A stretch of 64,000 nucleotides of DNA from Dyella ginsengisoli LA-4 (GTDB lineage: Bacteria; Pseudomonadota; Gammaproteobacteria; Xanthomonadales; Rhodanobacteraceae). The DNA is taken from contig NZ_AMSF01000055.1 in the NCBI RefSeq assembly GCF_000334915.1, positions 1-64,000 of the forward strand, in the 5' to 3' direction. The notes under the pieces were generated by a model that saw only the letters and a program-made list of their open reading frames with translations, did no database searches and was not told the DNA's origin. The number at the start of each line of letters is the position of its first letter. The stretch's first letter is position 1. The translations under genes were made by a program, and so were the position numbers. Below, in pieces: positions 20,995-55,777 of the stretch.

Positions 20995-20995
20995 A

Positions 20996-26081: not shown

Positions 26082-26094
26082 GGGGTCGATCGCC

Positions 26095-26747: not shown

Positions 26748-26751
26748 AGAA

Positions 26752-27111: not shown

Positions 27112-27122
27112 ACCTGTGCTCC

Positions 27123-29546: not shown

Positions 29547-29547
29547 T

Positions 29548-30315: not shown

Positions 30316-30326
30316 ATCGAGTCCTT

Positions 30327-34153: not shown

Positions 34154-34156
34154 GGC

Positions 34157-37447: not shown

Positions 37448-38155
37448 ATGCCTCGCCAAGCCCGACTGGAACTTCCCGGCATCCCGCTTCACGTCACCCA
37501 GCGCGGCGTCAATCGCTGCGCGATCTTCGTCGACGACGAGGACCGGGAGCATTACTACCGACTGCTCGGCGAAGCGACCCGGGAGCACGGCATCGCCGTT
37601 CATGCCTACGTCTTCATGGGCAACCACGTGCACTTGCTGCTCACCTCACCCCAACGCGACGGGCTATCACGGGCCATGCGCAACCTCGGCCAGTGCTACG
37701 TGCAAGCATTCAACCGGCGGCACCGCCGCTGCGGCACGCTCTGGCAGGGGCGCTTCAAGTCATGCCTGGTCGACAGCGAGTGCTATCTGCTTACGGTCTA
37801 TCGCTATATCGAGCTCAACCCGGTACGGGCCGCGATGGTCGAACGACCCGAGCAGTTCCCTTGGTCCAGCGTGCACGCCAACCTGTCACTGCAGGAGGAT
37901 CCGCTGGTGACCCCGCACCCGGCCTACCTCGCGCTGGACTGCGACCCGACCGTTCGCGCCAAGGCCTATGGTGAATGGCTACGCCAAGGCGTCAGCGAAG
38001 ACGACCTGCTCCACATCCGCGAGCACCTTCAGAAAGAACGCGCCTTGGGCGACCGCACGTTCCAGGCACTGGTCGAGCGGGCTCTCGGACGCTCGGTGGC
38101 AGCACGGCCACAGGGACGACCGAAACGACAGAACGACGCAGCTGAGGGGGCCTAG
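37448..38155 (+). CDS. REP-associated tyrosine transposase (RAYT), intact
   Basis: 235 residues. Y1 HUH transposase of the RAYT group: LPGIPLHVTQRG, the histidine pair in GNHVHLLLT (residues 57-65), NRRHRRCGTLWQGRFKSCLV, the tyrosine region YLLTVYRYIELNPVRAAMV, FPWSSVHAN, TPHPAYLAL. Such proteins nick and join REP palindromes. The gene ends directly in a REP copy (38147-38173). Two further 3' fragments of the same gene joined to the same REP lie at 106-316 and 40087-40150, a sign of past activity. Confidence 0.93.
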   Translation: MPRQARLELPGIPLHVTQRGVNRCAIFVDDEDREHYYRLLGEATREHGIAVHAYVFMGNHVHLLLTSPQRDGLSRAMRNLGQCYVQAFNRRHRRCGTLWQGRFKSCLVDSECYLLTVYRYIELNPVRAAMVERPEQFPWSSVHANLSLQEDPLVTPHPAYLALDCDPTVRAKAYGEWLRQGVSEDDLLHIREHLQKERALGDRTFQALVERALGRSVAARPQGRPKRQNDAAEGA

Positions 38156-39279: not shown

Positions 39280-39683
39280 TCCGCCGCGACCCGGGGAGCC
39301 TGACGCGCGCTCATGGCACTGAGGATGAACTTGCGCAACCGGTCGAACCGTCCCAGACGGACCATGTCCCGCGGTGAGACGTCGCCGAGCATCGGATTAC
39401 GGGCCTTGAACCACATGGCGGTCTTCACCAAGTCGCCGCCGAACGCTTCGGCCACCATGTTGCAGGTGATGGCGACCTCCTCCAGCCGGTCACGCATGGC
39501 GGCGGGAATGGCTTCGTCGTAGCGCACCGAGTTGGCCGAGACGTCGGCCAGGTGAGAGACCTCGGCCTTGCGGAGATCCAGCCAATCCACGACTCGACGT
39601 GGCTGGAAGTCCGGGCCCAGGCCGAAGCCGAGCAGGTCGTGTTGGGGGATGGTGTCGAAGAGCGTCGCAGCGGTAGCGGACAT
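39276..39683 (-). CDS. Xre/MbcA/ParS-type antitoxin
   Basis: 135 residues. The C-terminal half carries the toxin-binding (DUF2384) pattern: EVAITCNMVAEAFGG, TAMWFKARNPMLGDVSPRDMV read in parts, GRFDRLRKFIL. The N-terminal half is the Xre-like DNA-binding part (HLADVSANSVRYDEAIP). GGAG nine bases before the ATG. Tandem repeats upstream (39741-39772) may be its operator. Confidence 0.9.
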   Translation of the reverse strand: MSATAATLFDTIPQHDLLGFGLGPDFQPRRVVDWLDLRKAEVSHLADVSANSVRYDEAIPAAMRDRLEEVAITCNMVAEAFGGDLVKTAMWFKARNPMLGDVSPRDMVRLGRFDRLRKFILSAMSARQAPRVAAE

Positions 39684-39809: not shown

Positions 39810-40086
39810 TCAATCCGATTCCGGATCGTCCGCAAGCGGCGAGGTGAGGCGACGTAGATCGGCCACTGCGTTCACGCCGGCCCGGGACCGGCGGGTGTAC
39901 CGGTTGACCATCTCGGCGCTGCGCCAGCCGCCGGCGTGCTGGATCTGCGCGGTGGTCGCGCCGTTGTTGATCAGGTCGTTGGCGGTGCCCACCCGCGCCG
40001 AATGCCCCGAGATGGTCGCCGCGTGCTCCAGCCGCGCCGGCGCGCCGGCGGAAGATCCGCGCCACCTCCTGGGCGCCCTGCAGCAG
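39810..40086 (-). pseudogene. tyrosine recombinase (phage-type integrase), C-terminal remnant
   Basis: The last 60 codons read GATTAQIQHAGGWRSAEMVNRYTRR, with the tryptophan box and catalytic tyrosine. In the neighbouring frame SGHSARVGTAND supplies the H-x-x-R box and, further back, QGAQEVARIFRR. The two frames join at a one-base shift near 40040, within the run of CGCCGG repeats. The N-terminal half is missing; a RAYT tail plus REP sits at its 5' end (40087-40150). Non-functional. Likely the remains of an island integrase. Confidence 0.85.
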
Positions 40087-40150
40087 CGGGGACGACCGAA
40101 ACGGATCGACGACGCGCATGAGAGGACTTAATTACCTCCGTCCCCTTTAG
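40087..40150 (+). repeat. RAYT 3' tail fused to REP element, copy 3
   Basis: About 15 codons matching the RAYT C-terminus (RGRPKR..) run straight into GACTTAATTACCTCCGTCCCC. The unit separates the broken recombinase from a toxin fragment and so probably marks the insertion that cut both. Confidence 0.75.
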
Positions 40151-40320
40151 CGCGAGTTCCAGTTACAGAGCTTCCCTGAAATGCAGCATCTGCGTTCGGA
40201 TATCCGGCGTTCTCAAGACCGCTGTATAGGTTGTCACCAAAAGCCTGGAACTCCGATGAATTTCCGAAGCCGAGTGGTACCTTGTTTGGAACATAAAGAG
40301 AAATCGCCTTTCGGCGGCTT
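40127..40320 (-). pseudogene. orphan toxin fragment, nucleotidyltransferase-like
   Basis: Minus-strand frame without a start: it reads LYVPNKVPLGFGNSSEFQ, FGDNLYSGLENAGYPNADA and AFQGSSVTGTRA, then enters the REP and stops. The FGS-x-EF..FG..L..GL..AGY....FQGSSVTG pattern recalls the front of a nucleotidyltransferase-type RHS tip, whose catalytic DFD part would follow; it is missing here. It lies straight after the RHS2 immunity gene, so it is a displaced tip cut off by the REP unit. Family call from memory. Confidence 0.55.
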
Positions 40321-40330: not shown

Positions 40331-40591
40331 TTAAATCTTTAGCTCATCGAACAGTGGTCTCAGAATCTCATCAAGTCGCTCATCCGTCAGTCCAACGCCC
40401 GCCCGTTCCGGACTTGCACCGCGATTCCAAGCCATGATCGCCGGCATTGCTGACTCTGAAAGATCATCCAATTCCATATAGAGAAGCCGGACGATGTCAT
40501 GATTTGTTCGAACGATGTCCTGCTCGAACCACCCCCGAAAAATCGAGCTCGGCTTCTCTCCAGACTTCAGAAGCAGGCGAATGTCGCTCAT
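40331..40591 (-). CDS. putative immunity protein for RHS2
   Basis: 86 residues. The ATG at 40591 overlaps the RHS2 TGA (ATGA), so toxin and immunity are translationally coupled. Small, acidic and helical: DIRLLLKSGEKPSSIFRGWFEQDIV, VRLLYMELDDLSES, DERLDEILRPLFDELKI. Not a family I can name. High A+T like the other tip modules. The frame open to 40699 runs inside RHS2 and is not used. Confidence 0.7.
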   Translation of the reverse strand: MSDIRLLLKSGEKPSSIFRGWFEQDIVRTNHDIVRLLYMELDDLSESAMPAIMAWNRGASPERAGVGLTDERLDEILRPLFDELKI

Positions 40592-43500
40592 GGCTTCACC
40601 TGCGAAGTCGGCGTAAAGACTGGACGTACGACGCCTGCCTGAATTTCTGGAACGTAAACATCGGTATAGCCATGCCTTGTTGCCATTCGACCAGTCCAAG
40701 TGGAAAGAGCTGCCTGCCGCGGGCTTAGACCCGCCTCAACCCCATTGAGGTATTGAGCGGCATTAACGCTATCAGTTCCGATGTGCCATTCGCCAGTAAT
40801 CGAACTGATCGGTACACCGTCGTTCCTGGCGCGGAGCATGAAGCTATCGAACATGTCAGAACCGGAGCCGAACAGAGCTCGATCGCCCTCAGCGCGAACC
40901 GTGAACGTCATCCGATCTTCTGAAGTTATGCGCCCCAGGAACCCATGGCTAAACCCTTCGGGCGACGGATCGTGTATTAGGTACTCTCGCGTCCCATTTG
41001 GATATGTGTTCGTAGAGAAATCATCCGCCAGATTCATCCTGGGCATGATGACTTTGTCTGGAACCAAAGATACTCCAGAGTCCGCCTTCGCGAACACCCC
41101 CAACTCCTGCAACCCAGCCTTGGCCGACATCAGCAGCTCAGGAAGCTCAAGCCCAGCCTTGGCCAAGCTCGCAGCCATCAGCGCATAGTTACCGGCCCGC
41201 TCGATAGGCGACAGCTCGAACGGATCTTTAAGTGGCGCGGCGAATTCATGCGACGCCTGCGCTTCTGCGTTATGAAGCTCCTGCAGGTCGGCCGAGGACG
41301 ACTGATACTGTTCCGCCATCTGAAGTTGGTATACGGCCTGCGCTTGCGAGGCCCGAACAGCCAAGTGATAAATTCCATCGGCCGTCCCCTTGATTGCCCC
41401 CCAAACAGCTCTAGCGGGCAGCGTCAGCAGCGTATAGGCCTGCTTATTCTCGAATTGACGCACCTCCTCAAGCGGAACCGGCGCATCGTTCACAGCATAT
41501 GGAGCAGTTGGCGGAGTGAGATTGTAGGTAGCCAAACCGCGCGAGGCTGACGGATCCATGTAGTCCATGGATAGCAGACCAGCAGCCGGCGCCGAAACAC
41601 TCATGCCCGTCAGGGTGGGTATCTTGATGGGAAGCATCGGAGGTTGCGACTGCGGTCCGGCATCGAGGACAGGGGGGCCGAAAGCACTGGCACCACCATA
41701 GCCGGCACCGATCAGTGAGAGATCGTTGCTATAGGCGTTTGGGTCGCCTGCATATGTGGAAAGGACGTCCATGTTCGGATCTGAGTATGCACCCCAACCG
41801 GCTTCCTGAGCACCGTCAAGTCCACCGACCGACGAATTGCCATAGGCGAACGAATAAGCGGGCACCTGGGCGTTCAAGGACGTTGTGGAATGCGCATCGA
41901 TGTCCGCCTGCGCCCGAGCGCCGGTCTTGTTGATCAGATTCTGGACGTTCTGATCAAGTTGCTTCTGGCCGCTCCTGAGCTCGACCTCGTTAATGCCTGC
42001 AACCGCAGTACTTCCCAGCGCGTTTCCGAATACATCCTCGCTGATCTGCTGCCAACCCTGCACATGGTGATCACCCAAGGCAACGCTTGTCTCGCGGGTG
42101 ACGATGTCGCTCGTCGCCCTGGCACCCAAGTTGCCCCAATAGTTGGAACCAAACTGACCGGCATGAATGTCTTGATTGGTCGAGCCGACCTCTCCACCAG
42201 CCACCGCTCCAGCCGTCGTAGCCACTAAGCCAGCCCAACTGAAATGAGCCGTTTCGCCGGTGAGCTTCTGGGTTTCGTACTGGGCAAGGTAACCGGTGGC
42301 GCCGCCAATCGCGTTGGCAGTGGCCCCGCCCATACCCAGCCCCCCCAGCGCCCCACCGACCGCCCCGGTAATCGCACCTGCGGAAGCCTGCTGGAATACT
42401 TCCTTGAAAGAAAAACCACTGTGAGTACCAAGAATGTCACCAGTAAGCTGGGTCGCGATATCACCCGCCGCAGCCACTGCAGCCCCGGTGGCAGCTCCGG
42501 CCGCAACTGTAGCGCCCAAGCTTGTGGACGCCCAAGCTGCCATCGCGCCTGATGCCGCGCCATAGGTCACCGCCGACACGATCACCGCCACTGCAATCAC
42601 GATGATCGCCGCCACCATATTGCAGTGATGCTTCGGCGGCGGCGGCGCATACACACTCGGCGGCGTCGTACTACCGGCAATCTGCGACGGGTTGTACGGC
42701 TTGAACGTGTTCGCCGCGTTCGCGCTTGTGGTCACCTGCGGAATCGTCAGCGTCTGCCCCACCACCAGGTCGGCATCGCTGTTCAGGCCATTGGCCTGTG
42801 CCACCACGTACCACAGGCTCGCGTCGCCGTACTCGGCCTGGGCGATGCTCATCAGCGTGTCGCTGAACTGCACCACGTAGCCGGAGGTGCCGGCATCGGT
42901 GTTGGTGAAGGCAGTCAGGCCATTCACCACGTCGATACCACCGCCTTCGTCCACGCTGGCCACCTGCTGGCCGTTGACGTAGTCGTAGTGGTGCGTGCCA
43001 GCCCCGCCCTGAGGAGTGAACGTGCTCCCGGACACTGTGCCATCGCGGCGCTGCAGGATCTGCCCGTTGCCATCGAAGGCGAAGGCACGCACCGTGTCGG
43101 CCAGGGTGCCGCTGCTCAGCTGCACGTGCTGGTCGATCGCGATGCGCTCGCCCAGGTCGTTGTAGTAGCTGGTGTCGGTGGCCGGTACGTAGTTGCTGTC
43201 GCTGCTACTGCCGGAGGTGGCCCGCTCGAGATAACCGTCCTTCTTCAGGTAGTGCACCGTATAGGTGTCCGTACGGCCGGTAGTGACGTCGTAGTACTGG
43301 TAGGCGGTGACGTTGCCGACTGCGTCGTAACCACTGCCTGCCGCACCGCCGGAGACCTTGTAGCTGACCTCGTTCTGCAGGCCCATGCTGGCCCAGCTAG
43401 TCGCGTCGATGGCCGGCATCGTCGTCGGCGGCGTAGCCGTTTTGCCATCACCCTGCCAGTTGCCCGGATGGGCGAACACCTGCTCCTGCAGCAAACGTCC

Positions 43501-46500
43501 GTCGGCGTCGTAGTGGTCGATGGTGGCCGAGGCGAGCATGCCGCTGATGTCGTTGCTACCGTCGCCCACGGCATCGGCATACGGATCGAGCTTGATCAGG
43601 CCGCCGTTGACCCGCGTAGTCGTACCCGGTGCATAGAACTGTTCCTTCGCCACCAGGTGGCCAGCCGCGTCGTAGACGCGCCTTTCTTCGATACCTCGGC
43701 CACCGCCCTGAGTGGACGCATAGTCGGAACGCACCAATTCGTTGCGCTCGTCGTAATAAGCAAGCTGTGACTGGGACTGCCCGGTGCTGTCGACCAGGAT
43801 GTGGTTGACCGCGTTGCCTGCTTTATCGTAAAGCGTCTCGCTGGAGCTGGAGTCCTCCTTAAGCACGATCTGGCCGTTGACCAGTGCGCCGTTGTCGATA
43901 TCGACGCGATTGTCGGCGTCGTAGGTGAACCAGTACGACTGCATGTTCGGCGTGGGTGTTGAGCTACCGCCGCCACCGGTGCCTCCCGCCCCTCCCCCGG
44001 TGCCGGTACCGCCGCCACCGTCTATCGGCAGCAGATTAGCGGTAGCTCCTGACCCTAGTGTACTTAGGCCCGATCCCGTGCCTCCGGGGTACAGTGAAGT
44101 GGACGGGCTTATGCTCGCAAAGCCCAGGGGAGTTGGCGGAGCACTCGGGCGTGAGAAGCCGATGGTCTTAGTAACACTTAGTCCATTGGTGTCGGTTGCC
44201 TTGAGGATGATTGTCACCGCCAGTGCCGGCCCGCTGGACGACGTAAAAGTGCGTGTGGCTGGATTGAAGCTGAGCCAGGCGGGTACAAATCCACCAGCTG
44301 CGTTGGATATCGAGTAAGTAAGGGCTGAGCCCGTCGGGCTGGTGAACGCGCCAGATGGAAAAACGTAATCCGGATAAGTGGGAGTGAGCGTGACGCTGTT
44401 GGGAATTCCGCCGTTATAAACAGGGGGCTGCGCAGCCGGCGGATTGATCTTGATGTGGAAAACGAAGGTCGAGGTGGCTCCGGCACTATCGGTAAGTTTG
44501 TAGCTGACAGCCCAGGTACCGGCAGTGGTCGGCGTACCACTGAATACCCGATTTGATGCGTTGAAAGTAATGCCCGGAGGCATTCCGGAGGCGCTGTAGG
44601 AGATCACCTCTCCATTCTGGTCTGCTCCGGTAGGAGCCTGATAGCTGAATGCCGTGCCGACGACGCCACCTTGGTCAGAGACACCGAGAGGAATACCAGG
44701 AGCGATATTGCTGATCGTGAGATTGAAGTTGGTCGAGACGGTCCTCCCGAGAGCATCCTTCGCCGTCACTCTAATCGTGTAGGTTCCGGACAATACTTGT
44801 CCGACGGACATTGAGCCTCCGCTCCAAGTCAATCCGCTCGGCAGGGCGGCCCCGTTCGACAGCGAGGCCGTGTAGCTGAGTCCGTGACCATATGGATCGG
44901 AAAAGGTGTTTCCCTGAACAACCGTAAAGGTGCCGGAATAAGGATTTTTCGCCGAAGGAGTTGCAATCGGGTTCGCAACAGCGGGCGAACCTACAATCGC
45001 CATCTGGAAGTTCAGGCTAGTGACCACCCCCTTTGCATCCGTTGCTTTGTAAATGATGGTGAACGTGCCGGCCGCAGTTGGCGTGCCGCTAAAGGTACGA
45101 GTGGACGCATTGAAGGTCACACCCGAGGGCATGCCGCTTGCGCTGTAGGTGACGGCATCGCCATTGGCGTCCGTTGCTGCCGGCGCTTGATAGGGTGCCA
45201 TGGCGATGGAGGTCGCACCACTCTGGTTGGTCACGCCGCCGGAGAACACTGGTCCGACATTGTTGATCGCGATGGTGACATTGGTGCTGACCGTGCGACT
45301 CAATCCGTCGCGGGCCGTGATCGTGATGGTGTAGCTTCCAGCGACCACCGTGCCGATGGTGAGCGAGCTACCGCTCCAGCTCGTGCCGCTGGGCAACCCA
45401 CTGGCGGTATAGGTAAGCCCCGTACCGTAGGGATCGTTAAAGGTATTGCCCTGAACGAGCTGGATCGCACCGGCATTGGGGTTCATCGCTGCCGGGGTGG
45501 CAATAGCGTTCTGAACCGCAAGCGGCGCATAGGAGTTGGTCAGAGTGAATTCGGCAGAGGCGGCGCCGCCCTGCACATTGGTCGCCGTGACTTGCAACTG
45601 GTAGGTGCTGTCACGATAAACCGACCCGTCTGCCGTCGATTCGGTATACACCAGTGCTTGCGGCACCCCGGTGATCGCACCTGTGGTGGCATTGACGCTA
45701 AGACCAACCTGGCCGATGTCGACCCACTGTGCCGCGATGGTCACGTAGGTGTAATCGTCGATCTTGGGATTGAAATGCTCCACCGTGTGCTCAGGAATCA
45801 GCACCATGCCCGAGTAGGTCAAAGCCCCCCCGTCCGGCTCGACAAAGGCTCCAGAGGGCTTAGCAACATTGATCGCGTTACCACCGATCATTCCGGTCTG
45901 GTTGGTGTAGCCCCCGTTGTAGACCGGCAAGGGCTGTTGGTACTGGGCGATCGTGACGTTGAAATGCGTCATGGCCATCGCACCGCGCGAGTTGGTGACC
46001 ATGACATACAACGTGTCTTGCTCACCGACGGCGCTGCTCGGCACCGTACCGCTGAAGGTGTGCGTCGCCGCATCGAAGCTCATCCAGCTCGGCAGCGCAT
46101 AGTGCTGCTCGTTGCCGTTGATCATGATGTAGCTGCCCGCGGTGTAGCTGAGTGTGGTGCCATCCGGCTCCGAGAAGGCACTGGCTGGGATGGAGTAGCT
46201 GAAGGGCCTGCCGTTGAATCCGGTCTGGTCCGAGACACCGCCGTTGTAAACAGGTGGGATAGAAGCCACGGTCAGTGTGAATGGTTCGCTGGCTGTTGCG
46301 CCATTGGACGCGGTGGCAATCACTTGCAGCGAATAGTCGTTAGGGCTGCCCAAGGGCGGCGTACCAGTAAAGGTCCGAGTGCCAGCGTTGAACGTAAGCC
46401 AGCTCGGCAAGGCTCCCCAGCCTGAACCGCCGTTGTAGCTTGCGCTGTAGGTGATGCTGGCTCCGTTGGCATCCGTTGCTGCCGGGACGGTAAAGCTCAG

Positions 46501-49500
46501 GGCCGTGCCGACGTGCCCGAGGGGTGGGGTCACGCCTCCGCCGAAGACGGGCGCCACCACCGGTACCGTCACGGTGAAGGACGCACTGACGCTGGCCCCC
46601 GTGATGTCGGTGCCGGTGATGGTGATCGGCCAGCTTCCGGCCGCAGCGGCGTTGCCGCTGAGCACACCATCGGTGCTGAGATGCAACCACGACGGCAAAT
46701 TGGAGCCGGTGAAAGTCAGCCCAAAAGCGAGCGGATCCGTGAAGCTGCTGGCGACATCCAGGCTCCAGGCCTGCCCGGGCTGAACGGTTTGTATGGGGAT
46801 CGACGAAACGGTGGGCGTACCGGTCCCCGTATTGATCGACGAAGCATTGGTGCCGTATCCACTCTGCACGAACACGGCGCGACGGTTGCCGGCAGCGTCG
46901 TAGTTGTAGGCCGTGCGCATCAAGCCTACGTCCGTGTCCGGATTCTGGTTGGTAACCACCGACAGCCGGTTATGGCTGTCGTAGCGGGTGACGGTTTCGT
47001 TGTGGACCGCCTGGCCGGCACCATCAGTCGTCTCGGTGACGACATCGGTCGCGTTGCCCGAAGCGTCGTACTGGTAGGTCGTCCAGGCCGAGGTCTGACT
47101 CCCCGTCTTTTCGGTTTTCTGCTGGACCAGACCGCCGGCGTAGTAGGTGTAGTCGACTTCGCTGCTGCTACCGACCCATAGCCCCGGGACGTAGCCGGGG
47201 TTGGTCTGTCCACTGGGCGTCCAGGTGCTGGTCTGCTTGGTCAGCAGACCCGAGTTCGCATCGTAGGTGTAGGTGTAGTTCGCGCCGCTGAGATCGGCAT
47301 GCGCCCGCACCCGACCGAAATAGTCATAGGCCCAGGTCTGGGTGTTTCCATCGGCATCGGTCTCGCTGACCTTGTTGCCATTGACATCGTAGGCCCTCGT
47401 GTCGGCCACGCCATTGGCGTGTTGCACGGCGGTCTGGCTCTTGAGTACACGCCCCTGGCTGTCGTAGTCGTAGTACGACGAGTTGCCGAGGGCATCGGTG
47501 ACTTGGCGGCGGTCGCCGTTCTCGTTCAGCGTGAAAGTCTGGAGTGTGTGCGCTGTGCGTGTGCTGCCGCTGGTGTCGAGCGTGTAATCCCCCTGCCCAG
47601 TGACCTGGTCATCGAGGTCGTAGGTCGTTGTGGTGATATGCACGGCCGTGAGAGCCCCATTCACCGTATGGGTCGGGTCCACGGTTACCGCAGGGGTTTG
47701 TTTCGCCAAGGCGCGGCCGAGGACGTCATACGCCGTGTAGGTCATTGCCCCGAGCGCATCCTCGCTCCGAATCAGCTGGCCGGCGGCGTTATCGGTGTTT
47801 GATGTTGAGTGATTGTTCTCGTCGGTCACACCCATCAGGCGACCGTTGACGTCGTAGAACCACTGCTTGACCGGCGTCTGCCACGTACGCGTGCCGTTGG
47901 CGCCCACCACGAGCACCTGCGGCTCGGTCTGCTTGATGATGTGGTTCTGGGAGTCGTACAGGAAAGTAGTGGTGTAGCCGCGGGCGTCAGTCTGGGACAG
48001 TACGTGGCCCCAGCGGTCGTAGCTCAAGGTTGTCTGGGTGCTTTCGTCCACACCGCTGGCGGCGTTGTTGGCCGGGGTGCGCACCTGCACGGTGCGACCA
48101 TCGAGGTCCAGCCAGTTGTGGACCCAGGTGGTATTGCTGCTGCCGGTGACGATGCTTCCATCAAAAGTGAGATGGCCGGCCAGATCGTAGCCGTAGCTGT
48201 GGATGGCGCCGGTACTGCTGCCGGGGGCGCTGGTTTGCTGACCGGCGTTGTTGTACGTGAAGACCGCTTCATAACCGTCGCTGCTGTACGCATTGACCAC
48301 CCCGTCGCCGCGAGCCACCACCTCACCGAAGGCGTTGTACTTGACGTACTGGGCGCTGTCCGGCGTGCTGACGCCAGCCCGCGTGGCCACGGTGCTCAGC
48401 CGCTGGTTGACGTTGTCGTAGGTGGCCGTGGTAGTGACAACCACGGAGCTGCTGTTGCCGGTGAGCGTGTACCAGGTCTTGGTGAGATTGCCTGCCTGGT
48501 CATAGGCGCTGTAAGTGGGATGCCCGTTGGCATCAAATTCCGTCACCTGACGACCCAGCGCGTCGTAATGGTCGTAGGTCGTTTCAGCAGTGGCCCCCGT
48601 TCCGGAGCGCACAGTGCGCACGGCATTGCCCAGAGCATCGTAGGTGATCGTGGTGACCGGCGAGGCCTGTACATAGAGCGAGGCGCTGGACAGATCGATG
48701 CTGGCGTTGCCGGCCAACAGGGTTTGCCAGTTGCTGACCAGCACCGAGCGGCTGGGCTCGGTCACGGTGAGTACACGGCCCAGTGCATCGTAGGTGGTGG
48801 TGGTCTTGGCGCCGTTGACGGTCAGCGAGGTGACCCGGTCTTCGCCGTCGTAGCCGAAGCTGGTGGTGGTACTACCGGCAACGATCTGGGCCGCGCTATT
48901 GACGTAGCTGTTGTACTCGCCGCTCTGTACCTGCTGCGACTTCCGGCCGATGCTGTCGTAGCTGATGGTGGTGGTGCGGTCGTAGCCGCTGGCCACCGTG
49001 CCGGCCGCCGGCAGGCCCGGTTGAGTGGTCGTGGTCAGGCTGCCGGTGGCGATGGCATTGGCGTATTCGGTGGCCGAGGTGACCTGCCCGGCGCCGTTGT
49101 AGACCCAGGTGGTGACGTAACCCATCGGGTCCACGTCCATCACCTTCTCGTTCAGGGCGTTGTAGTAACTGTAGGTGGTCGCCCAGACCTCGGCGCTGTA
49201 ATTGGATTGGCCGACGGTGCCATAGGCGCCCTGGATCAGCACTGACGTCTTCAGCACGTTGCCGTACGCGTCGTAGGCATACGTCGTGGTCGGCGAGCCC
49301 GTCGCGCCCTGCCCGGCGTTGTTGCCCATCGCCAGCACGTAGGTGATGGCCGACTGCACCACGCTGGTCTTGCGGTTGGCCTGGTCGTAGGTAGTAGTGA
49401 TCGTGCGATCGCTGCCCGACGCGGTCAGCGCTCCGGCGATCTGCGCGACGCTCAACGGCTGGCCGGCGGTCATGAGCGTGCCGCTCAGCGCCGTGGCATA

Positions 49501-52500
49501 GCGGGTCACCCCAGTCTGGTTGCCGTAGGCATCGTAGCTATAGGCGGTGACGTAGCCGTTGGCATCCACGTCATAGGCCGGCTCGCCGTCGAGGTTGTAG
49601 GCCTTGTAAGCGTAGTGGCCGCGCACGTCCTTGCTGACCACCGCGTGGCCCAGCGCGTCGTAGGTCACCGTGGCGGTCGTAGTGCCGGTACCCGGGGTAC
49701 GGAACACACCGCTGTTGTCGACATAACCGGCATCCGGATACGTCGTGGCGATCTGATGGTTGCGGCTGTCGTAGGTGTAGGTGATGGTGCGCGCCGCGGC
49801 GGTGTTGTAGCCGTCGGTGCGCTTCGTGACATTGCCGTTGGCGTCGTACTCCAGCACGGTAGTTATCGGTGCGCTGGCCGTACTCAGCGTGTTGCCGCTG
49901 GTGTAGGTTGCCACCGTCACCACGGGGCTCTTCTGCACGGTCTGGCGACCGGCCGCGTCGTACTGGTAGGTCCACACCGCGCCGTCGCGGTTGGTCTCGG
50001 TGAGCTTCAGGCCGGTGGCGTCGTAGGTATAGGACGCCTTCGTGCCCAGGGCATCGACCACGTGGGTCAGGCGACCGGCCAGGTCGTAGACGTTCTGGGT
50101 GAAGCGGGTGCTGGCGGCGGCGTTGGTCGCACTGACCGCGCTGGCCACACTGGCCTCGGTCAGCGTGCCCGGCACGGTAATCGCGTTGAGGTACGTCAGG
50201 GTCTTGGTGAGCTGGCCGTCGGCATCGTACTGCTGCTCGGTAACGAAGCGGCCGGCGTCGATGGTGTAGCGCAGGCGACCGGCCGCATCGTATACGTAGC
50301 GGGTCTGCTGGTAATTGGTGCTGCTGGCCAGGGTCTGCGCCACGCTATCGGTGGACAGCTGGGCGCTGAGCGCGCTACCACTGCTCAGCGGGATCATGGT
50401 GCCGTAGGCGATGTCGCTCAGTACCCGGCCGGCCGCGTCGTAACGACGCTCGCTGACCTGTGCCACCAGCTGCCCGTTGACGGTGTTCTGCTGCACCACG
50501 AAGCGGACCTCGCCGTCCGCGTCGTACAGCTTCAGCGTCACCTCGGCATTGGCGTCGGTGTTGCCGGCCGCACTGATCAGTGCCGCCATGCTGCTGTCGG
50601 CTGTACCGGCCACCATCGCCGGGAACAGGTTCGCGTTGTTGAACGCCTGGTTGCTCACCGCGTGGGCGTAGGTGAGCGTCTCCGAGGGCCGTCCTGCGGC
50701 GTCGTAGCGCTGCTCGGTGATGTAGCCCAGCGGATCAACCGTGTAGTGCACGCGACCGGCCGCGTCGTACACCGTGTAGCGACGCTGGTCGATGGTGGCA
50801 TCGGCCACCACCCGGCTCGCGACGTCGGCCAGGGCCGGCGCCGTGCTGAGGTTGCTCAGGCTGATCGGCGTGGCGTAGGTGCGCGTCGCCGTCACCCGCC
50901 CGTCGGCATCGTAAAAGGCCTGCACCACGGCGCCGGACGGATCGATCGTGTAGACCCGCTCGTTCGCTTCGTCGTAGACGTTGCGCGTGACGTTCCCGTT
51001 GGGATCGGTCACCGTGACCAGGTTGCCGTTGCCGTCGTAGGCATAGGCCGTGGTCAGGTTCAGGTGACCACTGCCCGGGTCCACCACCGTGCGGATGCGC
51101 CGGCCCAGGTGGTCGTAGATGTACTGCGTGGTCCGCGCCGCAGTCGTGCCGGCACCTTCGGTCACCGAGAGCTGCTGGCCGGCGCCATCCCAGGTGTAGG
51201 TGGTGGTGAGGTTCAGGTGGGTGGTGTCCCCGGCGTCCTCCACCATCGTCAGCACATTGCCGCCGGCGTCGTAGGCGTACGTGGTCACCACCCCACGCGG
51301 GTCGGTCACGCTCAGCGTCTGACCGCGGCCGTCGTAGGTGTAGGTGGTGACCCGGTTCAGCCCGCTGGGATCCACCGTGCGGGTCAGCACCCGGCCGCTG
51401 GCGTCGTAGCTGTACGTCACCACGTGCCCCGTGGTGTCGGTGGTCTTGAGCAGATGACCGTCGGCGTCGTAGACGTTGTCGGGCGGGGTCTGGCCCAGCG
51501 CGTCGGTGACGTGCAAGAGGCGGCCATCGCCATCGTAGGTGTAGTGGGTGACGTCGCCGGCGCCGTCGGTGACCGACAGCGTATCGCCGTAGGCATCGGT
51601 GACCCTGGTGACCACCACGTTGTCCGGGGTGGTGATCTTGGTGGTATGCAGATCCGGGTACTGGTACGAGGTCACCTGCCCCATCGCATCGGTCTGCGTG
51701 ACCACACGACCATAGGCGTCGTAGCTGGTCTGGGTGGTGCGGACCGCCCCCTGCACCGTCTGGCTCTGGGTCACCTGGCGACCGAGCGCATCGTAGGTAT
51801 AGCTGGTGGTGCTGTTGCGCGCGTCGGTGCGGCTGGTGACCCGCCCGAAGGCGTCGTAGGTCACCGCGGTCGTGCGGTTGAGCCCGCCGACATCGTCGGT
51901 CTCGCCCGTACGCTCGCCGCGCAGGTCGTAGCTATACGTGGTGGTCGTGCTGTTGCCGGCGCTCAGCGCCTGGCCTGGCTGACTCAGCTGGCGCTGTTGC
52001 TGCACCACCTCGCCAAACGCATCGTAGCTATAGGCGACCTGATAGCCGTTGCCGTCCAGCACGCTGGCCACCTGGCCATCCAGGGTGTACTGGTAGGTCT
52101 GGATCGCATCCTGGGCCGGGTTGGCCAGGGCGGCGGAGGCGGCCGCTAGATCCGCCAGCGCAGCGGTGTCGGGGTTGACGGTGCTGCCGCTGCTGCTGCC
52201 GGTCGTCAGCGTGACCCGGCCGGCCAGCTGCCGGCTCGTGGCCACCTGGCCGAAGGCGTTGTAGGTGTACGCGGTGACTTCGCCCCAGGCATTGAGCGTG
52301 CTGCCGTTGGGCTGGCCCACCACGCGGTAGGCCAGGCGTCCGGCGGCGTCGTAGTACGACCACACGGTGTTGCCCAGCGCGTCGGTCCGGAGCGTCTCCT
52401 GGCCGCGGGCGTTGTACTGGTATGTCGTGGCGGCCCCTGCCCCGTCGGTCGCGGTGGCCACGTCGCCGAAGGCGTCGTAGGTCGCACCACTGGTGCGCAC

Positions 52501-55455
52501 CTGGCCGCCGTTGGGTGGCGTGGTGGTGGTGCTCTGCAGGTGGCCGACGCTGTCGTAACCGTAGACGGTGACCGTGCCGTCCGCCGCCGTGACCTGGTGC
52601 ACCCGCCCTTCGGCGTCGTACTGCGTCACCGCCGTCTGGACCGCACTGCCGTTCACCTCCCCCACCAGCGTGGCGACCGACTCCTGCCCGGTCAGCGCAC
52701 CCAGCTGGCTCACCGACAGCGCCTGGCTGTAGCGCGCAGTAGTCGTGCTATCGCTCGCCTCGTCGTAGGTGGTGGTGGTCAGGTAACCGTCCGCATCCAC
52801 CTGGGCGACGAGATCACCCCGGTTGTCGTAGTAGGACCGGGTGACCTGATCGTCCGTGCTGGTGACCACATCCGCCAGCAGCGCCGTCAGCGAGGGGGGA
52901 TGACCCAGTGCACTGAGCTGGGCCGACGTCAGCGCCGTCGCATAGGCTACTGTCTTCACGACCCGACCAGCCGCGTCGTAGGCGGTCGTGGTGACGTATC
53001 CCTGGGCATCCAGCGTCGCCACCGGCCGGTTGGCCAGGTCGTACAGGACGTAGCTCGTCCGATCCTGGGGGCTGGCGATGGTGCTGAGGTCGGCGAGCAA
53101 GGTCGCCAGCGCGGGGGTGCCCTGCAGTGCGCTGAGCTGAGCTGCCGACAAGGGCGTCGCATAGGCGGTGCTCGATACCCGGTTGCCCGCGCCGTCGTAG
53201 CCATACACCGTGACATTACCCAGCGCATCGACGTCGGCTACGTGCTGCCCGGCCGCATCGTGCAGGCTCAGCGTGGTCCGATCATCGGCACTGGCCGTCG
53301 GCAGGATGCTGGCCAGATCGCTCGGCCCCACCGCGCCGTTGCTCAGCCAGCCGGTGGTATCCACCCGCGTGGCGTACTGCACCGTCTCCACCACTGCGCC
53401 GTCGGCATCGCGCATCAGGCGGGTGACGGCGCCGGTGTCGTCCACCGTGCCGGCGACCCGCCCGGCCGCATCGTAGAAGGTGTAGCTGATGCCGCCGCCG
53501 ACGTCCTGCACGGCACGCAGCTGACCGTCGGCGTCATAGACGTACTGGGTCGTCCGCGTGGTCTCGCCGGTGGCCGACTCGGTCACCGTCACCAGCTCGC
53601 CGGCGCTGTTGCGCACCTCGGTATGCACCCGGCCGTTGGCGTAGCTCACCGCCACCGTGCCCTGCCCGTCCTGGTAGCTGTAGCTGGTCACCGCCTGGTT
53701 GACGTCGTCCGTCCGGCTCTGCAGCCGGCCCAGGCCGTCATAGGCGTAGGACACACTCTCCAGCGTCGTGCGATCGCTGCCGCGCACCGTGATCTGCTGG
53801 CGCAGCAGGCCCTGGCCGTCGTAGCTGTAGCGGGTGATCGACTCGCCGGCATCGGCCACGCCGTTGCCGGAGGTGTCGACCTGGTCCCACGCGATGTGTT
53901 GGGTCAGGCGTCCGGTGATCGCATCGTAGGCGTAATCGGTGCGGGTAGTCTGGGTGAGGTCCTGCGCCGCCGCCCAGGTCGTCATCGTCGCCAGGTCCGG
54001 CGCCGCATCCACTGCCAGGCCGCTGACGTCGTAGGCCGCTGCGGCAAAGCCGCGGGTCAGGCTGACCTGCCCTTGCGCGTTGTACTGGGTCTCGCTGACG
54101 TTGCCGTCGGCGTCGATCACGAAGCGCAGCCGGTCCTGGCTGTCGTACACGTAACGCGTCGTCGACGGATCGGCCGGCGCGCCGGCATCCGCGGCATCGG
54201 TACCGTCGGGGTCCGGCGTGCGGTACACCGTGCGGGTCAGCAGCTGGTCGTCGGCACTGTAGGTGGAGGTGACCGTATTGCCGGCCGCGTCGCGCTCCAG
54301 GATCCGATTGCCGCGGTCGTCGTAGCGGTAGATCGTGGTGTTGCCCAGCGCGTCGGTGGTCGAGGCCAGGTGACCATCCGAGGTGTAGGTGTAGCTGGTG
54401 ACCTGGCGCTGGCCGTTCACCGCCGGCGAGGTCACCGAGGTGAGGTTGCCGGCGGCATCGTAGCCGTAGGTCCAGGCCCGGCCGCTGGCGTCGGTCACCG
54501 TGGTGGCCAGGTTGGTCAGGTCGTAGCTGAAGCTCAGCGTCTGTGCGTCAGCGCCGCTGCCGGTGGTCACCGAGGCGACCCGGTAGTTGCCTTGGCTGTC
54601 CTGCGCAAAGGTATAACCCACCGTCACGCCATCGCTCTGCGTCAGCGAGGCCACCCGCAGGCTGTCGCCGTCGTAGGTGTAGGTGGTGCTGAACGTGCTG
54701 GCGTCGGCGGTGTTGTCCGGGGTCAGGTCTGTGGTCACCGTCGACAGGCGGCCCAGGCTGTCGTAGACGTAGCTGACGCGACTGACCGTCACTGCGGTGC
54801 CGCCACCCGGCGGCACCTCCAGGCTGGACAGACTGCTGATCTGGCCGTTCGTGTAGCCCAGCAACAGGGCTTCGCCGTCATCGGCCGTCACGCTCACCAG
54901 GGCCTGCGTGGTGGCGTCGTAGCTCAAGTGGTAGTGCGCGCCGCTCTTACTGTCGGTCAGGTCGGTCAGCACGCCGGCGCCGCTGTAGGTCTCCTGCATC
55001 CGGTCGCCACCACCGGTGTAGGTCCACGTGCCATCGCCGGCCGAACAGGCCAGGGTGTCCTCGGCGCCGCTCTGGGTCGTGCCCACGTACAGACCGCGCG
55101 TCGTGTCGTAGGTGAAGACCTCCTCTTCACCGTCACCCCCGTCCCGGGTGATCGTGCTGCCGGCGGTGTTGAGGGTGCCGGACAGGGCGCCCAGCCGACG
55201 GTCCAGGCCCAGCAGCCAGGCGCCAGCCCCGACGTCGCCGGTGCTGCCGAGGCTGTTGTAGGTCCGGGTCAGGCCAGCCAGCAGGCCTTGGGCGACCAGT
55301 TGCTCGTCGCGCTGCTGCAGCACCAGGTTGCCGGTGGCGACATTGACGTACTGGCTCGCCCCGCTCTGACCCAGCCCGCCCTGGCTCCCCAGCCCCAACG
55401 CCGCGGCCGACGTCCCCAGCAGGCCAAGACCGTTGCCCGAAATCACTGCCACCAT
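40588..55455 (-). CDS. giant RHS/YD-repeat polymorphic toxin (RHS2), different tip
   Basis: 4,955 residues from the ATG at 55455 with AAGGGGAAG before it. Same order as RHS1: conserved entry, YD repeats to about 2870, He_PIG/cadherin-like block about 2875-3770 (some 190 residues longer than in RHS1), a Gly-rich linker (GGGGTGTGGGAGG), YD repeats, LysM at about 4190-4240 (FSDTLMSIAQAEYG), hydrophobic block 4277-4345, then a shared pretoxin region (FGNALGSTAV). The final 165 residues are unlike RHS1: YLIHDPSPEGFSHGFLG, RALFGSGSDMFDSFML, ISSITGEWHIG, LSPRQAALSTWTGRMATRHGY. The tip is unnamed to me. Long blocks are nearly identical to RHS1 while others differ sharply, which suggests recombination. 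Carries a copy of the same FliA-type promoter. Confidence 0.9.
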   Translation of the reverse strand: MVAVISGNGLGLLGTSAAALGLGSQGGLGQSGASQYVNVATGNLVLQQRDEQLVAQGLLAGLTRTYNSLGSTGDVGAGAWLLGLDRRLGALSGTLNTAGSTITRDGGDGEEEVFTYDTTRGLYVGTTQSGAEDTLACSAGDGTWTYTGGGDRMQETYSGAGVLTDLTDSKSGAHYHLSYDATTQALVSVTADDGEALLLGYTNGQISSLSSLEVPPGGGTAVTVSRVSYVYDSLGRLSTVTTDLTPDNTADASTFSTTYTYDGDSLRVASLTQSDGVTVGYTFAQDSQGNYRVASVTTGSGADAQTLSFSYDLTNLATTVTDASGRAWTYGYDAAGNLTSVTSPAVNGQRQVTSYTYTSDGHLASTTDALGNTTIYRYDDRGNRILERDAAGNTVTSTYSADDQLLTRTVYRTPDPDGTDAADAGAPADPSTTRYVYDSQDRLRFVIDADGNVSETQYNAQGQVSLTRGFAAAAYDVSGLAVDAAPDLATMTTWAAAQDLTQTTRTDYAYDAITGRLTQHIAWDQVDTSGNGVADAGESITRYSYDGQGLLRQQITVRGSDRTTLESVSYAYDGLGRLQSRTDDVNQAVTSYSYQDGQGTVAVSYANGRVHTEVRNSAGELVTVTESATGETTRTTQYVYDADGQLRAVQDVGGGISYTFYDAAGRVAGTVDDTGAVTRLMRDADGAVVETVQYATRVDTTGWLSNGAVGPSDLASILPTASADDRTTLSLHDAAGQHVADVDALGNVTVYGYDGAGNRVSSTAYATPLSAAQLSALQGTPALATLLADLSTIASPQDRTSYVLYDLANRPVATLDAQGYVTTTAYDAAGRVVKTVAYATALTSAQLSALGHPPSLTALLADVVTSTDDQVTRSYYDNRGDLVAQVDADGYLTTTTYDEASDSTTTARYSQALSVSQLGALTGQESVATLVGEVNGSAVQTAVTQYDAEGRVHQVTAADGTVTVYGYDSVGHLQSTTTTPPNGGQVRTSGATYDAFGDVATATDGAGAATTYQYNARGQETLRTDALGNTVWSYYDAAGRLAYRVVGQPNGSTLNAWGEVTAYTYNAFGQVATSRQLAGRVTLTTGSSSGSTVNPDTAALADLAAASAALANPAQDAIQTYQYTLDGQVASVLDGNGYQVAYSYDAFGEVVQQQRQLSQPGQALSAGNSTTTTYSYDLRGERTGETDDVGGLNRTTAVTYDAFGRVTSRTDARNSTTSYTYDALGRQVTQSQTVQGAVRTTQTSYDAYGRVVTQTDAMGQVTSYQYPDLHTTKITTPDNVVVTRVTDAYGDTLSVTDGAGDVTHYTYDGDGRLLHVTDALGQTPPDNVYDADGHLLKTTDTTGHVVTYSYDASGRVLTRTVDPSGLNRVTTYTYDGRGQTLSVTDPRGVVTTYAYDAGGNVLTMVEDAGDTTHLNLTTTYTWDGAGQQLSVTEGAGTTAARTTQYIYDHLGRRIRTVVDPGSGHLNLTTAYAYDGNGNLVTVTDPNGNVTRNVYDEANERVYTIDPSGAVVQAFYDADGRVTATRTYATPISLSNLSTAPALADVASRVVADATIDQRRYTVYDAAGRVHYTVDPLGYITEQRYDAAGRPSETLTYAHAVSNQAFNNANLFPAMVAGTADSSMAALISAAGNTDANAEVTLKLYDADGEVRFVVQQNTVNGQLVAQVSERRYDAAGRVLSDIAYGTMIPLSSGSALSAQLSTDSVAQTLASSTNYQQTRYVYDAAGRLRYTIDAGRFVTEQQYDADGQLTKTLTYLNAITVPGTLTEASVASAVSATNAAASTRFTQNVYDLAGRLTHVVDALGTKASYTYDATGLKLTETNRDGAVWTYQYDAAGRQTVQKSPVVTVATYTSGNTLSTASAPITTVLEYDANGNVTKRTDGYNTAAARTITYTYDSRNHQIATTYPDAGYVDNSGVFRTPGTGTTTATVTYDALGHAVVSKDVRGHYAYKAYNLDGEPAYDVDANGYVTAYSYDAYGNQTGVTRYATALSGTLMTAGQPLSVAQIAGALTASGSDRTITTTYDQANRKTSVVQSAITYVLAMGNNAGQGATGSPTTTYAYDAYGNVLKTSVLIQGAYGTVGQSNYSAEVWATTYSYYNALNEKVMDVDPMGYVTTWVYNGAGQVTSATEYANAIATGSLTTTTQPGLPAAGTVASGYDRTTTISYDSIGRKSQQVQSGEYNSYVNSAAQIVAGSTTTSFGYDGEDRVTSLTVNGAKTTTTYDALGRVLTVTEPSRSVLVSNWQTLLAGNASIDLSSASLYVQASPVTTITYDALGNAVRTVRSGTGATAETTYDHYDALGRQVTEFDANGHPTYSAYDQAGNLTKTWYTLTGNSSSVVVTTTATYDNVNQRLSTVATRAGVSTPDSAQYVKYNAFGEVVARGDGVVNAYSSDGYEAVFTYNNAGQQTSAPGSSTGAIHSYGYDLAGHLTFDGSIVTGSSNTTWVHNWLDLDGRTVQVRTPANNAASGVDESTQTTLSYDRWGHVLSQTDARGYTTTFLYDSQNHIIKQTEPQVLVVGANGTRTWQTPVKQWFYDVNGRLMGVTDENNHSTSNTDNAAGQLIRSEDALGAMTYTAYDVLGRALAKQTPAVTVDPTHTVNGALTAVHITTTTYDLDDQVTGQGDYTLDTSGSTRTAHTLQTFTLNENGDRRQVTDALGNSSYYDYDSQGRVLKSQTAVQHANGVADTRAYDVNGNKVSETDADGNTQTWAYDYFGRVRAHADLSGANYTYTYDANSGLLTKQTSTWTPSGQTNPGYVPGLWVGSSSEVDYTYYAGGLVQQKTEKTGSQTSAWTTYQYDASGNATDVVTETTDGAGQAVHNETVTRYDSHNRLSVVTNQNPDTDVGLMRTAYNYDAAGNRRAVFVQSGYGTNASSINTGTGTPTVSSIPIQTVQPGQAWSLDVASSFTDPLAFGLTFTGSNLPSWLHLSTDGVLSGNAAAAGSWPITITGTDITGASVSASFTVTVPVVAPVFGGGVTPPLGHVGTALSFTVPAATDANGASITYSASYNGGSGWGALPSWLTFNAGTRTFTGTPPLGSPNDYSLQVIATASNGATASEPFTLTVASIPPVYNGGVSDQTGFNGRPFSYSIPASAFSEPDGTTLSYTAGSYIMINGNEQHYALPSWMSFDAATHTFSGTVPSSAVGEQDTLYVMVTNSRGAMAMTHFNVTIAQYQQPLPVYNGGYTNQTGMIGGNAINVAKPSGAFVEPDGGALTYSGMVLIPEHTVEHFNPKIDDYTYVTIAAQWVDIGQVGLSVNATTGAITGVPQALVYTESTADGSVYRDSTYQLQVTATNVQGGAASAEFTLTNSYAPLAVQNAIATPAAMNPNAGAIQLVQGNTFNDPYGTGLTYTASGLPSGTSWSGSSLTIGTVVAGSYTITITARDGLSRTVSTNVTIAINNVGPVFSGGVTNQSGATSIAMAPYQAPAATDANGDAVTYSASGMPSGVTFNASTRTFSGTPTAAGTFTIIYKATDAKGVVTSLNFQMAIVGSPAVANPIATPSAKNPYSGTFTVVQGNTFSDPYGHGLSYTASLSNGAALPSGLTWSGGSMSVGQVLSGTYTIRVTAKDALGRTVSTNFNLTISNIAPGIPLGVSDQGGVVGTAFSYQAPTGADQNGEVISYSASGMPPGITFNASNRVFSGTPTTAGTWAVSYKLTDSAGATSTFVFHIKINPPAAQPPVYNGGIPNSVTLTPTYPDYVFPSGAFTSPTGSALTYSISNAAGGFVPAWLSFNPATRTFTSSSGPALAVTIILKATDTNGLSVTKTIGFSRPSAPPTPLGFASISPSTSLYPGGTGSGLSTLGSGATANLLPIDGGGGTGTGGGAGGTGGGGSSTPTPNMQSYWFTYDADNRVDIDNGALVNGQIVLKEDSSSSETLYDKAGNAVNHILVDSTGQSQSQLAYYDERNELVRSDYASTQGGGRGIEERRVYDAAGHLVAKEQFYAPGTTTRVNGGLIKLDPYADAVGDGSNDISGMLASATIDHYDADGRLLQEQVFAHPGNWQGDGKTATPPTTMPAIDATSWASMGLQNEVSYKVSGGAAGSGYDAVGNVTAYQYYDVTTGRTDTYTVHYLKKDGYLERATSGSSSDSNYVPATDTSYYNDLGERIAIDQHVQLSSGTLADTVRAFAFDGNGQILQRRDGTVSGSTFTPQGGAGTHHYDYVNGQQVASVDEGGGIDVVNGLTAFTNTDAGTSGYVVQFSDTLMSIAQAEYGDASLWYVVAQANGLNSDADLVVGQTLTIPQVTTSANAANTFKPYNPSQIAGSTTPPSVYAPPPPKHHCNMVAAIIVIAVAVIVSAVTYGAASGAMAAWASTSLGATVAAGAATGAAVAAAGDIATQLTGDILGTHSGFSFKEVFQQASAGAITGAVGGALGGLGMGGATANAIGGATGYLAQYETQKLTGETAHFSWAGLVATTAGAVAGGEVGSTNQDIHAGQFGSNYWGNLGARATSDIVTRETSVALGDHHVQGWQQISEDVFGNALGSTAVAGINEVELRSGQKQLDQNVQNLINKTGARAQADIDAHSTTSLNAQVPAYSFAYGNSSVGGLDGAQEAGWGAYSDPNMDVLSTYAGDPNAYSNDLSLIGAGYGGASAFGPPVLDAGPQSQPPMLPIKIPTLTGMSVSAPAAGLLSMDYMDPSASRGLATYNLTPPTAPYAVNDAPVPLEEVRQFENKQAYTLLTLPARAVWGAIKGTADGIYHLAVRASQAQAVYQLQMAEQYQSSSADLQELHNAEAQASHEFAAPLKDPFELSPIERAGNYALMAASLAKAGLELPELLMSAKAGLQELGVFAKADSGVSLVPDKVIMPRMNLADDFSTNTYPNGTREYLIHDPSPEGFSHGFLGRITSEDRMTFTVRAEGDRALFGSGSDMFDSFMLRARNDGVPISSITGEWHIGTDSVNAAQYLNGVEAGLSPRQAALSTWTGRMATRHGYTDVYVPEIQAGVVRPVFTPTSQVKP

Positions 55456-55484
55456 GGCGCTTCCCCTTGTCCGGATCGCTTGCG

Positions 55485-55503
55485 GCCCGGTCGGCGACCG
55501 GGC
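55485..55503 (-). promoter_or_regulatory. hairpin in the RHS2 5' leader
   Basis: Exact copy of the inverted repeat at 15838-15856 in the RHS1 leader. Confidence 0.5.
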
Positions 55504-55515
55504 TCCTCCAAGCAC

Positions 55516-55542
55516 TTATCCAGCGGGGGAAACGAAAGTTTA
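55516..55542 (-). promoter_or_regulatory. FliA (sigma-28) type promoter of RHS2
   Basis: Both boxes, the spacer length and the distance to the ATG are the same as for RHS1: TAAACTTT (55542-55535), 11 bases, CTGGATAA (55523-55516). It lies in the duplicated block, apart from any flagellar gene, so RHS2 remains under the same predicted control. Confidence 0.7.
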
Positions 55543-55660
55543 GGGGGCGCTACCGCCCCGCAAGTCATGGAGCATGCGCAAGAACTGCGCCGAAGCCGCA
55601 GCATCAGCCTCCAGCGTCGACGTGGAGCGTCTTTTTACACAAGAATTTACACGTGGCCCA

Positions 55661-55700: not shown

Positions 55701-55777
55701 TGGCGCCCGAAGTTGGACTCGAACCAACGACCCCCTGATTAACAGTCAAGTGCTCTAACCAGCTGAGCTATTCGGGC
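55701..55777 (-). tRNA. tRNA-Asn (GTT)
   Basis: 77 nt with encoded CCA. Acceptor stem GCCCGAA pairs with TTCGGGC; D-arm AGCTCAGCTGGTTAGAGC; anticodon loop CTGTTAA gives GTT (Asn); T-arm GTTGGTTCGAGTCCAAC. All stems pair. Its 3' end faces the RHS2 island, the usual orientation for a tRNA used as an integration site. Confidence 0.97.

Follow-up and report, generated by a model that had tools for sequence, protein, structure and literature searches.

Copied promoter region upstream of a second giant RHS gene and a candidate flagellum-derived exporter in Dyella ginsengisoli LA-4

The window analysed here, 64,000 nucleotides of Dyella ginsengisoli LA-4 (contig NZ_AMSF01000055.1, positions 1 to 64,000), encodes two giant genes of the RHS type: RHS1 (1394–15808, 4804 amino acids), which is linked to a flagellum-like operon, and RHS2 (40588–55455, 4955 amino acids from the conserved MVAVISGNGLGL start). 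Both frames are uninterrupted and both genes are on the minus strand, as are the operon, the promoters, the copied stretch, the tRNA gene and the recombinase-like remnant described below. The region directly upstream of RHS2 is a copy of the region upstream of RHS1 and is composed of a promoter, the 5' leader and the tail of g129, a small gene that precedes RHS1. It is considered probable that this copy, made beside a tRNA-Asn gene, subjects RHS2 to the sigma factor encoded in that operon, at a distance of 40 kb, and that the operon encodes a type III exporter of flagellar origin that releases giant RHS proteins.

The copied region upstream of RHS2

Base-by-base alignment of the 166 bases upstream of RHS2 (55456–55621) with the upstream region of RHS1 gives 160 identical positions. 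In a blastn comparison of the window with itself, positions 55000–55621 align with 15353–15974 at 95.2% identity over 622 bases, and the likeness ends at 55621. These results bear out the earlier note on this DNA, which described a 166-base match that includes the last 26 codons of g129 and ends abruptly at 55621. The copied stretch contains these 26 codons with the stop codon (55540–55621, identified by the alignment and by a tblastn match at 55543–55638) and a promoter of the form TAAACTTT-N11-CTGGATAA (55516–55542, by motif match). The RHS1 promoter, identified in the same way, is located at 15869–15895, where its initial TAA is the stop codon of g129, and the two promoters exhibit no differences across the 27 bases of the motif. 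A 648-base query from the RHS1 upstream region, searched against the whole genome of the strain, recovered, besides RHS1 itself, the stretch upstream of RHS2 (E 1.1e-201) and a weak match of 39 bases (E 2.1e-4). Since the search yields just these three, a chance origin of the match upstream of RHS2 is excluded.

The copied stretch adjoins a tRNA-Asn (GTT) gene (55701–55777, ARAGORN), the flank of which is kept in three genus mates down to position 55632 in G002, 55657 in G001 and 55701 in G003 only. Within the 36–39 kb fetched from the genus mates, the rest of the window (1–55631) is unmatched save for one 66-base match and short stretches at approximately 17.6 and 35.0 kb, which fall near the genus mates' own flagellar genes. 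In G002, the 3' end of the tRNA-Asn gene is directly repeated 28 kb from the gene (L115, 6954–7050), and the tRNA therefore looks like an integration site. The repeat in G002 perhaps marks another island at the same site. Beyond the 3' end of RHS2, an open frame featuring GHSARVG...RYTR (39811–40100) was recognised by eye as a tyrosine-recombinase-like remnant.

Origin of the copied region

Full-length members of the g129 family were identified by profile search of the fetched regions in nine of nine genomes carrying the operon, and the C-termini of the g129 relatives in the eight other genomes align with the copied tail. The tail is therefore native to the g129 family, which indicates that the copy ran from RHS1 to RHS2. 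Placement of RHS genes after fliA was assessed in a named collection of 80 RHS loci, 71 of which were used for counts at RHS starts; the match in the remaining nine, left out of the promoter counts, does not begin at residue 1. The fliA gene ends at most 700 bases upstream of 8 of the 71 starts and at most 350 bases upstream of 7, counts made with queries from one family, which a distant fliA may escape. RHS1 thus stands at a place known from elsewhere, and RHS2 appears as the recipient of the copy. Both observations agree with the earlier proposal that the RHS gene beside the operon is the parent, and the 1500 bases before each of the 71 starts gave no example of the case named there as its refutation, in which an unlinked RHS gene follows a truncated g129 end and no RHS gene is operon-linked. 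The three genus mates have neither operon-type FliP nor an RHS gene of this type and therefore offer no date for the copy.

Differences between RHS1 and RHS2 at four-fold sites (uncorrected) range from 0.07–0.26 in the first 1500 codons through 0.21–0.54 in the middle to 0.51–0.85 in the last third, and the two proteins share 20–34% identity in the last three alignment windows. This graded synonymous divergence therefore points to a mosaic pair and not to one duplication with even decay: copying or conversion appears to have placed the 5' part of RHS2 and its promoter on a gene with an older, separate history in its 3' part. The suggestion that RHS2 arose by a duplication thus stands for the copied 5' part, with its promoter and g129 tail, and falls as a single clean event. 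The gradient is explained equally well if the 5' part underwent gene conversion or if a 3' part was exchanged. The gradient gives an even chance to the explanation that two old RHS paralogs had their 5' ends and promoters homogenised by gene conversion, with no recent gene duplication, although a duplication followed by exchange of the 3' part in one copy would give a similar picture and no closer relatives separate the two. The reverse history is very improbable; in it, RHS2 would be the parent, or a mobile RHS gene would have brought the g129 tail, which then became joined to g129 in this strain. RHS2 resembles mobile DNA in adjoining a tRNA gene and in having a recombinase-like remnant at its far end, but the native g129 tails, on which this history was rejected, and the RHS genes found behind fliA elsewhere both contradict it. 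A further recent copy that includes the promoter may be present in G022, in which two loci on different contigs (L011 and L023) have identical leaders and identical N-terminal 230 residues.

Promoters upstream of RHS genes

A search of 118 genomes (the strain itself included) with the RHS2 N-terminus returned 24 rows, composed of 16 N-terminally complete RHS genes, which were used, and one second piece of the same gene and seven weaker partial matches, which were dropped. The 16 genes belong to nine genomes of one family. All 16 starts, operon-linked or not, are preceded by TAAACTTT followed after 11 bases by a GAT-type element, which reads GAC in one case, with the site beginning about 85–99 bases upstream of the start codon. 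The TAAA-type -35 element, the fixed spacer and the GATAA-type -10 element agree with the FliA consensus, and the site is classified as a FliA-type promoter on these features. Its presence at all 16 starts shows that the promoter link is retained, which extends the suggestion in the earlier note that RHS2 kept a FliA-type promoter away from the operon. The sigma factor encoded in the operon presumably reads the RHS promoter.

The pattern CTAAACTTT-N14-GAT has two matches in the 4.5 Mb genome of the strain, which are the promoters of RHS1 and RHS2, and none in the three genus mates. Over 12 genomes it has 19 matches, 15 of them RHS promoters, versus one match for the reversed control pattern. 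Two of the four non-RHS matches (G089:C11:21862, equivalent to L085 at about 1862, and G005:C5:16989, equivalent to L095 at about 6990) are located near the g129/TPR end of the operon, where the pattern perhaps provides feedback on the operon or on g129.

Fifty-eight of the 71 starts are from genomes that were not used for motif finding; several RHS loci share one genome, so these 58 are not all independent. Within 200 bases upstream of these starts, TAAAC-N17-GAT is found at 34, the looser TAAAC-N17-[GC]A at 45 and the strict TAAACTTT form at 11. The corresponding counts in 9401 control windows are 9, 55 and 0. The best promoter match of the flagellin genes in the first genome set is different, TCAAG with GCCGAAA, in four of the five with a start found (without a control). 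The strain's own flagellin has no clear promoter site, and the starts of three further flagellin genes were not located. Many RHS leaders feature a stem-loop soon after the promoter, in sequences that are unrelated to one another; the mean longest perfect stem is 4.9 versus 4.0 in shuffles (n=53), an excess too weak for a leader hairpin to be claimed.

The flagellum-like operon

The genes are given here in order of rising coordinate. The gene preceding RHS1 is g129 (15893–16282), which encodes a small helical protein of 129 residues. The next gene (16476–17225) encodes a diverged FliA/WhiG-type sigma factor, assigned by Pfam, with sigma regions 2 and 4 present, and matched below cut-off by the NCBIfam FliA_WhiG model. 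It is followed by fliP, fliO and fliN (17185–18618) and by a gene for a short FliM/SctQ-like protein of which the C-terminal domain alone is recognised (18615–19442). The following group (19399–22284) is composed of flgE, flgD, a gene in the FliK position (280 amino acids) and one in the FliJ position (149 amino acids), the last two assigned by position and conservation. Next are fliI and fliH (22281–24409), u150 in the fliG position (24235–24687), and the group fliF, fliE, flgC, a flgB-position gene assigned by position only, flgI, flgH, flgA, flgG and flgF (24684–31007). Last in this order are flhA, flhB and fliR (31017–34927) and a fliQ-like open reading frame (ORF) of 87 residues, assigned by position and sequence (34924–35187). 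Beside the operon, a TPR protein (35204–36337) is weakly matched, below cut-off, by SctY and LcrH/SycD chaperone models. The other assignments are from Pfam.

The export apparatus set FlhA, FlhB, FliP, FliR, FliI and FliF is complete by Pfam. With NCBIfam, FlhA, FliP and FliF exceed their cut-offs, FlhA narrowly so for the flagellar model (779.7 versus 772.1); the FliI clade models fall below theirs and the FliI/YscN subfamily model is exceeded. Neither a secretin nor a needle protein was recognised by Pfam among the operon proteins scanned, and FlgH and FlgI are there instead. The core gene order is kept in eight relatives, with single genes undetected in some and G030 cut by a contig end. 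Four beta- and gamma-proteobacterial examples agree: Variovorax, Ramlibacter and a Lysobacterales metagenome-assembled genome (MAG) also keep it, and a Fluviicoccus stretch shows part of it.

In the family of u150 (150 amino acids), one member each weakly matches the FliG N-terminal domain (E 0.011) and the FliG middle domain (E 0.077), and five of eight members match MgtE_N; the FliG torque domain was not found in the family by Pfam. Foldseek gave 12 hits, five of them to FliG or to C-ring or motor entries of flagella, all with E above 1, and u150 is considered a weak FliG candidate only. A plain search found g129 in 4 of 60 genomes, the strain itself included, and the other members were found by profile within fetched regions. 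The first residues of g129 bear a likeness to those of FlgM; Pfam gave no FlgM match among nine members with E values up to 10, and the identification as FlgM was dropped for lack of support.

RHS proteins and their predicted export

The RHS repeats are identified by a PF05593 match (E 2.2e-31) and, with their variable C-termini, RHS1 and RHS2 are candidate RHS polymorphic toxins. The N-terminus MVAVIxGNGLGL is nearly invariant across 14 aligned sequences. The 400-residue C-termini of both proteins and the small downstream ORFs gave no Pfam match. In the first genome set, RHS frames that are not cut by contig ends encode about 3,750–7,850 amino acids, and 68 of the 71 frames in the named loci are open to the locus end. 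The region behind RHS1 (1–1393) has a GC content of 0.515, versus about 0.63 around it, and contains small ORFs; it perhaps represents a recently exchanged 3' cassette.

Operon-type FliP (at least 66% identity) is found in 9 of the 118 genomes, and the same nine hold the N-terminally complete RHS genes. From the genomes behind the named loci, a further 28 were picked for their spread, and FlhA, FliG and flagellin were sought in them; some are MAGs, with completeness not stated. In a quick FlhA tree of 71 rows (midpoint root for drawing), one clade of 33 rows is recovered with an SH-like approximate likelihood ratio test (SH-aLRT) support of 100, and FastTree recovers the same 33 rows with support 1.0. 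Eight of the first nine genomes and 25 of the 28 further genomes contribute one FlhA each to the clade; the FlhA of G030 falls off its contig, and a two-piece row (G131:C26) was left out of the tree. The association of this FlhA with RHS refers to a sample of RHS-bearing genomes and the 118-genome set. The three genomes without a member in the clade are Kribbella, Microvirga, both of whose FlhA fall outside it, and a Herminiimonas MAG.

In the proposed mechanism, the operon would build a flagellum-derived type III exporter with basal body, rod, rings and hook, and with no filament and no motor. Its FliA-like sigma factor would activate the RHS genes late, so that they take the position held by flagellin in a flagellum. 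The RHS proteins would then leave through the exporter, their variable C-terminal ends acting as effectors against other cells, and g129 may have a FlgM-like or chaperone role. RHS2 would belong to this regulon as its second payload gene, with recombination keeping its 5' part and promoter like those of RHS1 while the 3' end diverges.

Several observations weigh against this proposal. Kribbella has two RHS genes with the conserved N-terminus and no FlhA was found there, and in Microvirga the conserved N-terminus occurs with two FlhA that are both outside the clade; the N-terminus therefore does not necessarily act as a type III signal. A flagellin-like N-terminus was also rejected as proof of export, as the RHS pattern M..VI..N...L and the MSFVINTN of the strain's own flagellin are alike at four to five positions only, and Kribbella undercuts it further with the same start. 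The Herminiimonas MAG has RHS and its promoter, with no FlhA found. Operon genes are located in the fetched flanks of 19 of the 80 named RHS loci, two of them through one gene only, so most RHS genes are not beside the operon. Even the loose promoter is missing from 13 of the 58 starts, including those of Kribbella, Microvirga, Hahella, Pseudoalteromonas, Chitiniphilus and Roseateles noduli, and the strict form is missing from 47. Three of the 71 frames stop early, at 741–2365 amino acids, and proteins of RHS size would be very large for the type III route. The sigma factor scores 103.4 bits with TIGR02479 (FliA_WhiG, NCBIfam), below the cut-off of 189.6, and no convincing Pfam or PDB relative was found for g129. 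Gene content, promoter and co-occurrence are direct observations; export, target cells and the role of g129 are predictions.

A less likely explanation is that the RHS genes share a sigma factor with the operon and their products are secreted otherwise (by Sec, type VI or lysis), with the operon building a hook or tube for contact or the like. It would accommodate the Kribbella N-termini and the many RHS loci away from the operon, and the export signal of the RHS proteins is itself a prediction. It is countered by the shared distribution of operon-type FliP and this RHS type in nine of the 118 genomes, and by the RHS genes that follow fliA within 350 bases (7/71). The first 25 residues include one basic residue in RHS1 and none in RHS2, unlike a Sec signal, and the PAAR domain was not found by Pfam in the first 769 residues of RHS1, the one protein scanned for it.

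Motility genes in operon-bearing genomes

Flagellin_N (PF00669) and FliG_C (PF01706) are identified by Pfam in seven of the nine operon genomes, always on contigs other than that of the operon, and neither was found in the available sequence of G022 and G072. Among the 28 further genomes, 21 have flagellin and 21 have FliG_C, and the same seven lack both. Five of these seven (G123, G133, G137, G139 and G145) have FlhA of the clade; they comprise Variovorax boronicumulans, Lysobacter sp. Root690, a Lysobacterales MAG, a Ramlibacter sp. and a Fluviicoccus MAG, in which any other FlhA is at most an injectisome-like one. The remaining two are Kribbella and the Herminiimonas MAG. MotB (PF13677) was not found in any of the seven operon-only genomes (the five together with G022 and G072) and is present in five of five genomes that also have flagellin and FliG. 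From this gene content, the operon is predicted not to encode a motility flagellum, having no flagellin, FliG torque domain or MotB, and the earlier description of it as ordinary flagellar is not retained.

These distributions largely refute an ordinary second (lateral) flagellum with the RHS genes as passengers that landed at its end, which is now highly doubtful. The operon does encode the rod, the hook, the L, P and MS rings and a sigma factor of the FliA type, and its FlhA does pass the flagellar model, but flagellin and FliG_C are on other contigs or not found in the nine genomes, all three motility markers are missing from the seven operon-only genomes, and unlinked RHS genes carry the same promoter. 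Least probable of all is a decaying flagellar locus, now without function after losing its filament and motor genes, as the missing motility genes and the short FliM-like gene could suggest, given a gene set and order conserved over distant genera, a single FlhA clade of 33 genomes and a dedicated promoter that has been kept.

Other features of the window

A Y1 transposase (RAYT-like) gene is located at 37448–38155, and its 3' end is repeated at 105–316 and 40089–40151, about 1.1 kb beyond the end of RHS1 and 0.4 kb beyond the end of RHS2. The region 38305–39683 encodes a RES-domain protein (Pfam RES) and a small unmatched upstream partner, possibly a RES-type toxin-antitoxin pair.

Comparison with known systems and significance

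No description of an RHS-linked, filament-less flagellar operon was found in the literature searched, outside of which most subscription papers fall. The comparisons that follow draw on those parts of the cited papers that were available. The operon resembles the flagellum, including the flag-2 system (PMC6993521), in its rod, hook, rings, export gate, ATPase and FliA-type sigma factor with late-gene promoters, and the flag-2 paper itself proposes a secretion role. It differs in having no flagellin, FliG torque domain or MotB, and in that the promoter-linked genes are RHS; flagellin LafA is among the conserved flag-2 proteins, and one 1556-amino-acid Rhs protein is encoded beside VgrG at an Escherichia fergusonii locus (PMC6993521). 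The injectisome (PMC3459982) likewise descends from the flagellum and serves as a type III exporter, delivering proteins without building a filament. Unlike the injectisome, the operon keeps the L and P rings, rod and hook, with a secretin not recognised among the scanned proteins, and its FlhA falls outside the injectisome-like group (a group named by score and position).

The needle-less type III secretion system (T3SS*) of Myxococcus (PMC10433427, PMC12075869) is a reduced type III apparatus tied to bacterial killing, and Myxococcus has Rhs proteins of about 4000 amino acids, of which Rhs4 and Rhs5 have signal sequences (PMC10433427). T3SS* has no outer-membrane part or needle, whereas the operon encodes rings and a hook. 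Buchnera basal bodies (PMC8109811) also retain a basal body and export machinery, with the secreted protein not known, but they belong to a reduced symbiont genome; the operon has a separate FlhA clade, its own sigma factor and candidate cargo. The hat-shaped inner-membrane structure (PMC9380563) is a non-motility structure linked to flagellar type III proteins, for which the available text mentions no separate operon or RHS. RHS polymorphic toxins (PMC3482391) share the RHS repeats, variable C-termini and small downstream ORFs, and the genes described here differ in being very long, in having a FliA-type promoter and in that PAAR was not found in RHS1. The available part of that survey does not describe flagellar delivery of RHS; it reports an RNase toxin-fold gene beside Firmicutes flagellar operons and asks about flagellar delivery (PMC3482391).

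In flagella, the hook checkpoint links the state of assembly to late gene expression. The chances are evenly balanced that the operon represents a third type III lineage beside the flagellum and the injectisome, present in beta- and gamma-proteobacteria at least, in which a hook-basal body free of filament and motor would be joined to a sigma regulon of exported RHS payload replacing flagellin, with the state of assembly controlling payload expression. The FlhA clade together with the TAAAC promoter would serve as a marker for finding more such systems, and the exporter reading makes predictions that are testable by single deletions. If it is true, RHS proteins without known delivery would gain a dedicated machine, and the flagellum would once again have been turned into a secretion device, with the rings, rod, hook and sigma-factor logic retained.
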